A stretch of DNA of 64,000 nucleotides from an uncultured Photobacterium sp. Lineage in GTDB: Bacteria; Pseudomonadota; Gammaproteobacteria; Enterobacterales; Vibrionaceae. The stretch covers positions 103,064-167,063 of the forward strand of contig NZ_CAMRAN010000002.1 of the NCBI RefSeq assembly GCF_947039875.1, read 5' to 3'. Below, in pieces: positions 33,846 to 35,485 of this stretch (positions are counted from its first letter, which is position 1; each line of letters begins with the position of its first letter). The notes below the pieces were generated by a model. It saw nothing but the letters and a program-made list of their open reading frames with translations. It searched no databases and was not told where the DNA came from. Position numbers and translations under genes: made by a program.

Positions 33846-33967
33846 GGCTATCATGTCCTATATAAAGATTATTAATTAATAACAGTCTATGCCGAACCTT
33901 ACGCCATGAACAGAATATTATGCATCATCATTATTATTGATTTCTTTTTTACTATGCCAGATTGAGT

Positions 33968-33985
33968 GTAAATAATAATTTACAC
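33968..33985 (+). promoter_or_regulatory. Perfect TyrR box in the yfaY-tyrP intergenic region
   Basis: TGTAAATAATAATTTACA is an exact match to the strong TyrR box TGTAAA-N6-TTTACA. TTGACA follows at 33999-34004 as a candidate -35. A degenerate second box (TGTAAACATTTTAAAACA) is at 34142-34159. TyrR controls tyrP in E. coli. Confidence 0.75.
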
Positions 33986-34029
33986 AATAAAGACACGTTG
34001 ACAGCCATAATCTCTATCGTTAAGGTAGC

Positions 34030-34270
34030 ACTTAGCAGCAAATTATCATTAATTTGTTATTATATTCAGCTTTGAGAGAGCAAACGTGCGAATAATCCGT
34101 CCTAACACAGCCTATCGATAGCCACAGTGGCTAAATCCAGGTGTAAACATTTTAAAACACTTCATCTTGATTATGCCATTGTGGCCTGCTTTACATAATA
34201 GGGAGCGACCACAGGTGTATTTATACCCCCTCCCAAGTTAAATTTTCATCTTTCAGGGAGCGACATAATC
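34030..34270 (+). promoter_or_regulatory. Long structured leader of tyrP
   Basis: If transcription starts just after the TTGACA at 33999, tyrP has an mRNA leader of about 240 bases. It contains the perfect hairpin TAGCCACAGTGGCTA (34119-34133), a similar GCCATTGTGGC (34175-34185), and AGGGAGCGAC repeated exactly at 34200-34209 and 34255-34264. CCCCCTCCC (34226-34234) lies between and can pair with either copy. The second copy is the tyrP SD. I do not recognise a known riboswitch class. Confidence 0.5.
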
Positions 34271-35485
34271 ATGTCTTTAAATAAAACATTCGGCAGTATG
34301 CTGATTATTGCTGGCACCACAATAGGTGCAGGTATGTTAGCCCTTCCCCTTGCATCAGCAGGGTTAGGTTTTACCACTGCAACCATTATTATGATTGGTA
34401 TTTGGGCATTAATGACTTACACCGCATTATTAATGCTGGAAGTCCATCAACACGCCGATCCCTCGGCAACATTAAACACGTTAGCCTACGAATTATTAGG
34501 CCGTAAAGGGCAAACCATCGCAACATTAGCAATGTTCTTCTTATTCTACGCATTATGTGCCGCTTACATTGCTGGCGGTGGTAGCCAATTAAGTGAAAAA
34601 ATATCGACTTGGACAGGCACAACCATCGCACCTCAAATTGGCGCTGTTATTTTTACAATTGTGATTGCAAGTGTGGTATCAATCGGCACACACAGTGTTG
34701 ATATGGTTAACCGTGTTCTATTCACAGCAAAAGTCATTGCCCTTGTAGTCATGTTGAGCTTATTACTACCGTATGTTCAAGGGCAACATCTGGTTGAGAT
34801 GCCAGTAGAAAAAGGATTAATTCTATCTGCCTTGCCTGTTATTTTTACCTCTTTTGGTTTTCATGGCAGTATTCCTTCCATTGTCCGTTACATTGGAATT
34901 GATATCAAAGCCTTAAAGAAAATCATGATCGTCGGATCGGCATTACCGCTAACCGTATATATTTTATGGCAATTAGCGAGCCAAGGTATTATGGGGCAAC
35001 CACAATTAATGACTAACAGTACGCTTGGTGCATTTATTGGTAGCTTAAGTGAATTACTTCATAATCCAATCGTCGGTCAATCCGTTTCTATCTTTGCCGA
35101 TCTTGCCTTGGCAACATCCTTCCTAGGTGTGAGCTTAGGGTTATTTGATTTTCTAGCAGATACGCTAAATCGCGGTAATCACCTGTCAGGTCGCGGACAA
35201 ACGGCGTTAATTACATTTTTACCACCACTCGCATTTGCTGTGTTCTACCCACAAGGGTTTATTATGGCATTAGGGTATGCTGCTATCTCTTTAGTGATTT
35301 TAGCCATATTCTTACCTGTAGCAATGGTTCGAGCACAACGAAAAGCGCAATATACGACAAACACCTCATCTGGCTATATTGTTAAAGGTGGCTCATTTTC
35401 TTTAGCTATTATAACTATCGTCGGTATTATTATCATCACCGCTCAGTTATTACAAATGGTTGGAATAATACCCACTGTTGGTTAA
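34271..35485 (+). CDS. tyrP: Tyrosine-specific permease
   Basis: 404 residues, the family length, with about 11 hydrophobic helices. The N-terminal AGTTIGAGMLALPLASAGLGF motif and IFTSFGFHGSIPSIVRYI identify the aromatic amino acid permease family (TyrP/Mtr/TnaB). The sequence is closest to TyrP, for example LFADLALATSFLGVSLGLFDFLAD with only minor changes. It is a proton symporter for tyrosine in the inner membrane. Upstream lies a TyrR box; downstream is a strong terminator. Confidence 0.9.
   Translation: MSLNKTFGSMLIIAGTTIGAGMLALPLASAGLGFTTATIIMIGIWALMTYTALLMLEVHQHADPSATLNTLAYELLGRKGQTIATLAMFFLFYALCAAYIAGGGSQLSEKISTWTGTTIAPQIGAVIFTIVIASVVSIGTHSVDMVNRVLFTAKVIALVVMLSLLLPYVQGQHLVEMPVEKGLILSALPVIFTSFGFHGSIPSIVRYIGIDIKALKKIMIVGSALPLTVYILWQLASQGIMGQPQLMTNSTLGAFIGSLSELLHNPIVGQSVSIFADLALATSFLGVSLGLFDFLADTLNRGNHLSGRGQTALITFLPPLAFAVFYPQGFIMALGYAAISLVILAIFLPVAMVRAQRKAQYTTNTSSGYIVKGGSFSLAIITIVGIIIITAQLLQMVGIIPTVG

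Follow-up and report, generated by a model that had tools for sequence, protein, structure and literature searches.

The tyrP leader of an uncultured Photobacterium sp., analysed within a stretch of 64,000 nucleotides (hereafter the window), probably functions as a ribosome-mediated translational attenuator that reads tyrosine codon 10 of a short leader open reading frame (ORF), with a first copy of the tyrP Shine-Dalgarno (SD) decamer acting as a decoy, beneath the control exerted by TyrR. The leader ORF, a long-range stem and a set of conserved competing pairings have been established by sequence comparison, and the flip between these pairings is predicted by folding only. We infer that ribosome position serves as input, that the signal is Tyr-tRNA, and that tyrosine scarcity opens the tyrP SD. 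The attenuator reading is supported by the identity of the downstream gene, since tyrP encodes a tyrosine transporter.

The comparison covered the 500 bases upstream of tyrP in 49 other Photobacterium genomes, which together with the window gave 50 leaders. The gene and the control elements around its promoter are the following:

34271..35485, plus strand: tyrP, tyrosine transporter of 404 aa (NCBIfam equivalog NF011711 PRK15132; score 482.4 bits, cut-off 482)
33967..33984, plus strand: perfect TyrR-type box TGTAAA-N6-TTTACA, upstream (sequence)
33998..34026, plus strand: sigma-70-type promoter TTGACA-17 nt-TAAGGT (conserved column block in the genus alignment)
34142..34159, plus strand: second, weak TyrR-like box TGTAAACATTTTAAAACA, in the loop of stem 1:2 described below (exact 18-bp spacing in all 50 leaders)

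The ATG at 34271 is the tyrP start, and the closest TyrP among named genomes is that of P. piscicola (96%). A TyrR-type box with at most two mismatches occurs at the matching upstream place in 50/50 Photobacterium leaders, and the promoter block (TTGACA-17-TAAGGT/TAATGT), which directly follows the perfect box, is kept across the genus alignment and would place the transcription start near 34033. If this promoter is used, the leader is approximately 240 nt long and contains both decamers as well as the sequence complementary to them (anti-SD). A preliminary description of this region had proposed a translational layer on top of TyrR control, one that a transcription start downstream of 34200 would have contradicted; the leader does sit downstream of the conserved promoter, and its probable start lies upstream of that position. 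A promoter site between the weak TyrR box and GGGAG, another candidate, was rejected, given that no conserved -10 occurs there and that the conserved promoter sits upstream. The two TyrR-like boxes flank the promoter and the first part of the leader and are 175-189 bp apart in the genus, and in several Vibrio tyrP genes one box is found ~165 bp upstream and a second one reaches the start codon. Such pairs of boxes suggest DNA looping by TyrR. No intrinsic terminator was detected before tyrP, the sole terminator-like site lying within the gene (34290-34304), and for this reason the element is classed as a translational variant and not as a classical transcriptional attenuator. Some further features of the locus have been observed. 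The sequence GACATAATCATGTC at 34262-34275, which occurs only in the P. phosphoreum group, may fold into a small hairpin that includes the start codon of tyrP. A second TyrP-like gene with 37% identity is present at G000:C30:6928-8085 (L002), the match having been read through two stop codons; similar TyrP-like matches with one or two stops occur in many relatives, where the stops may mark the end of the gene.

The leader contains a short ORF, which the preliminary description had missed and which ends in Tyr-Arg:

34086..34121, plus strand: leader ORF GTG CGA ATA ATC CGT CCT AAC ACA GCC TAT CGA TAG (MRIIRPNTAYR), 11 codons to Tyr-Arg in 50/50 leaders
34074..34080, plus strand: weak Shine-Dalgarno-like GAGAGAG of the leader ORF (sequence; weak anti-SD match)

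The most conserved block of the leader, TATCGATAG, corresponds to the 3' end of this ORF. In 50/50 genomes a start codon (25 ATG and 25 GTG) precedes TAT by exactly 27 nt. When changes were counted as parsimony steps on a tyrP tree, its T and G were found to be invariant and its first base to vary only between A and G, next to neighbouring columns with about 10 steps. In-frame stops are absent from codons 2-9 (0 in 400 codons); the two alternative frames contain 12 and 24 stops, and the eight codons preceding the ORF contain 24. Tyr 10 is invariant in the 50/50 leaders and always encoded by TAT, the codon of Arg 11 has changed four times with the residue never changing, conservation of Thr 8 is partial (of 20 codon changes, 10 altered the residue) and codons 2-7 have drifted as neutral sequence would. 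As judged from the sequence, 50/50 genomes thus carry what is expected of an attenuator in this respect, a short leader ORF with a codon for the relevant amino acid. Tandem regulatory codons, which are usual but not universal in amino acid attenuators, are not a conserved feature here: one Tyr codon is present in 24 genomes, two in 23 and three or more in 3, with only one of them invariant. The SD of the leader ORF is weak in most genomes. In eight genomes (L027, L028, L032, L036-L038, L040 and L041) the stop after Tyr-Arg has been lost, and these ORFs run on to a later stop, with peptides ...YRWPQ, ...YRRPQ or ...YRQPQ. A second mini-ORF, GTG TAT TTA TAC CCC CTC CCA AGT TAA (34215-34241, after the first decamer), was also considered as a candidate leader peptide with two Tyr residues, and it was dropped when neither the Tyr codons nor the frame proved to be kept in relatives.

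Downstream of Tyr codon 10, five segments take part in the pairings:

34121..34131, plus strand: segment 1, arm GCCACAGTGGC, whose first base is the final G of the leader stop (sequence, alignment)
34175..34185, plus strand: segment 2, arm GCCATTGTGGC, pairing with segment 1 (compensatory changes at 4 pairs, 0/500 shuffles)
34200..34214, plus strand: segment 3, comprising the SD decoy GGGAG (34201-34205, partner segment 4) and CCACAG (34209-34214, partner segment 2) (sequence, pairing comparison, folding)
34230..34234, plus strand: segment 4, anti-SD CTCCC (sequence, pairing comparison)
34255..34264, plus strand: segment 5, second decamer, with the tyrP SD GGGAG at 34256-34260 (sequence, pairing comparison)

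Where the preliminary description had seen two similar hairpins upstream of the decamers, GCCACAGTGGC and GCCATTGTGGC more plausibly form the arms of a single long-range stem. This stem 1:2 has 11 bp, with at least 9 of the 11 positions paired in 46/50 genomes, 97.6% of cells paired and four pairs changed on both sides, a pattern that 0/500 shuffles equalled; the local-hairpin alternative revealed no covariation, and 234-281/500 shuffles were as good. The distance between the Tyr codon and the stem is fixed at 8 nt, and the length of the loop varies from 25 to 55 nt.

Exactly two copies of the decamer AGGGAGCGAC are present in the 64 kb (34200-34209 and 34255-34264), the second supplying the SD of tyrP, and no one-mismatch copies were found elsewhere in the window. 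Between the two copies lies CCCCCTCCC (34226-34234), whose CTCCC at 34230-34234 can pair with the GGGAG of either decamer. These observations recover, at the same coordinates, the duplication and the anti-SD that had been described earlier, and they support the proposal that the first copy and the true SD compete: pairings 3:4 and 4:5 cannot form together, and most genomes retain them through compensated variants. The variants of 3:4 comprise GGGAG/CTCCC, GGAGAG/CTCTCC and AGGAAGT/ACTTCCT, and 4:5 becomes CCGAG/CTCGG where the SD has changed. The lack of covariation or of decamer conservation that would have spoken against the proposal was not encountered. Covariation is present. Identity of the whole decamers is limited to close relatives, and what is conserved more widely is GGGAG, or a compensated variant of it, in both copies. 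In L014 the first copy carries one change (GTGAG), which weakens the decoy:anti-SD pairing there. In most genomes segment 2 can also pair with CCACAG (2:3), other registers being found in some, and this pairing competes with 1:2 for segment 2 as well as with 3:4.

Folding, in which a ribosome was mimicked by hiding the leader up to a set edge, predicts that these pairings respond to ribosome position. For RNA ending before the SD, with the leader free, stem 1:2 is almost always formed and the median probability of 3:4 is 0.65 (42 genomes); with a ribosome over segment 1 in the same genomes, the probability of 2:3 rises from 0 to 0.65-0.81 and that of 3:4 falls to 0.11-0.21. The drop in 3:4 calculated for the window was matched by 0/100 shuffles that kept the GGGAG and CTCCC blocks, and several relatives agree. 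In L013, L027, L036, L039, L042 and L045 the switch was no better than in the genomes' own shuffles, and for this reason the 2:3 step is the weakest link of the chain. When the edge was slid base by base and averaged over 12 genomes picked for good switching, 3:4 yielded sharply to 2:3 at a first free base of TAT+11, counted from the first base of the Tyr codon. From known footprints, the ribosome's edge is estimated at 9-13 nt when the Tyr codon occupies the A site, near the flip point, and a ribosome which has moved on to Arg or to the stop extends past that point. This predicted placement of the flip at a single codon is what a tyrosine-codon attenuator would need. With the usual, longer toeprint edge, the SD was closed at every position tested in most genomes, even with the ribosome waiting at Tyr, so that the direction of the response hinges on a few bases and on co-transcriptional order. 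When the leader is folded in full, only a modest opening of the SD is predicted, with a median of 0.14 and a value of 0.30 for the window. Mutually exclusive pairings set by ribosome position are thus predicted by sequence and folding only, and not in every clade.

In the proposed mechanism, a ribosome that stops short of passing Tyr codon 10 would leave segment 1 free and stem 1:2 would form. Segment 3 could then pair with the anti-SD (3:4), the first decamer serving as the decoy, and the SD of tyrP would remain open. Once Tyr has been read and the ribosome stands on the Arg or stop codon, segment 1 would be covered, segment 2 would pair with CCACAG (2:3) and the freed anti-SD would close the tyrP SD (4:5). 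Scarcity of tyrosine would in this way lead to more import and plentiful tyrosine to less. What speaks against an attenuator is the single invariant Tyr codon, the weak SD of the leader ORF and a footprint edge that is uncertain by a few bases, together with the four genomes without segments 2-4 and the four more without the GGGAG/CTCCC pair that are described below.

The conservation of Arg 11 and the partial conservation of Thr 8 also count against plain codon sensing, because codon sensing needs neither. They raise the alternative of a minimal arrest peptide comparable to TnaC, in which free tyrosine would stall the ribosome after ...T-x-Y-R; the stalled ribosome would mask segment 1, 2:3 and 4:5 would form and tyrP would be turned off, by the same RNA switch with another sensor. 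A residue that stays invariant through four synonymous changes, next to a partly kept Thr 8 and free codons 2-7, fits such a peptide, and a ribosome with Arg in its P site would mask all of segment 1. Nonetheless, known arrest peptides usually need more residues than the unconstrained codons 2-7 allow for, the loss of the stop after Arg in eight genomes indicates that arrest at a stop codon is not general, and an exclusive use of TAT for Tyr is not required by peptide sensing. An arrest peptide, the chief rival of the attenuator reading, is considered unlikely. The lost-stop and shortened versions in sister species could serve as natural variants for telling codon sensing and nascent-peptide sensing apart.

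A ligand-binding riboswitch, with stem 1:2 and its loop as the aptamer and no role for leader translation, would account for the covariation of the long-range stem, for the conserved loop bases TGTAA...ACA and for SD sequestration downstream of the stem. The ORF signature is, however, independent of RNA folding, the loop varies in length (25-55 nt), and the conserved loop bases match an 18-bp TyrR box of a kind that other Vibrionaceae also have near tyrP, where no such stem surrounds it. A search of Rfam 15 returned no match at gathering and only chance matches (E 1.6-3.2), in line with the earlier statement that no known riboswitch class could be recognised. The small-molecule aptamer suggested at that time is not favoured, the most conserved upstream part being the leader ORF ending in Tyr-Arg and the invariant stem bases fitting a TyrR box; a riboswitch of this kind is regarded as very improbable. 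The element could also be one of DNA only, with inverted repeats and boxes that are bound by TyrR and a further protein and with RNA pairings that are incidental. The DNA does carry regulator sites, in the form of the spaced boxes flanking the promoter, but the compensatory changes in 1:2, the exclusively synonymous changes at Arg and the conserved anti-SD pairings require both RNA and translation, which leaves this explanation very improbable too.

The leader element appears to be restricted to Photobacterium. It was absent from 20 tyrP leaders of other genera inspected by eye, a model of stem 1:2 applied to 298 genomes of the family gave matches outside the genus at noise level (best E 0.0017), and nothing convincing was detected at 31 non-Photobacterium tyrP loci. 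Away from tyrP in the same genomes, matches to the pattern were scattered and about as frequent as those to a reversed control pattern, G032 and G037 being among the few genomes without any pattern match, and similar DNA was not found on plasmids. Within the genus, four genomes of the P. profundum/P. indicum group (L023, L025, L033 and L034) have kept the ORF ending in Tyr-Arg and segment 1, with segments 2-4 missing; in these genomes tyrP starts soon after. Four others, of the P. jeanii type (L020-L022 and L028), have kept 1:2 with strong compensatory changes but have no GGGAG/CTCCC decoy pair. A sequence similar to segment 2, CCTACTGA, is found further down in L020 and L021. A literature search, for which most subscription papers were beyond reach, returned no report of a tyrosine riboswitch or of a tyrP leader peptide. 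If the attenuator reading is right, the tyrP leader would represent a tyrosine-codon attenuator of a kind for which no report was found, with a five-segment chain and an SD copy as decoy controlling the translation of a transporter. It would place a second tyrosine sensor, acting at the level of RNA, below TyrR and would show a genus gaining such a sensor at a gene whose relatives lack it.

Ribosome-mediated attenuation is itself classical, and the novelty of the proposed tyrP system would lie in its use of a tyrosine codon, a decoy SD and a chain of five segments. In the leaders of ermC and cat, the SD is opened when antibiotics stall the ribosome. The proposed tyrP mechanism is similar to these translational attenuators in that a ribosome on the leader ORF would decide the pairing of the downstream SD; unlike in ermC and cat, tyrosine is proposed as the signal, and the SD would close when segment 1 is masked. 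TnaC is longer than the tyrP leader peptide, stalls at its own stop codon and acts via Rho-dependent termination. This tryptophan-sensing arrest peptide (PMC8429421) shares with the tyrP leader a leader peptide, one key aromatic residue and the control of an aromatic amino acid gene, but the tyrP peptide has 11 residues, with codons 2-7 free and eight genomes without a stop after Arg. Amino-acid-linked leaders that sequester an SD are also known from actinobacterial ileS T-boxes and LEU elements, the latter having a leader ORF with codon runs; T-boxes differ in binding tRNA directly without translation, and LEU is a pseudoknot-type element with no resemblance to the tyrP leader (PMC1262725). 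In TrpL of the E. coli trp operon, the regulatory Trp codons are 10 and 11, and stalling on Arg codon 12 also counts (PMC1183508). The tyrP leader likewise has a short ORF with a regulatory codon at position 10 and Arg after it (Trp-Trp-Arg in TrpL), and alternative pairings 1:2, 2:3 and 3:4 that are here proposed to be set by ribosome position. Unlike in TrpL, the codon is one for Tyr and often single, the target is a transporter, and the terminator is replaced by the structural gene's SD as a fifth segment, making the chain one step longer.
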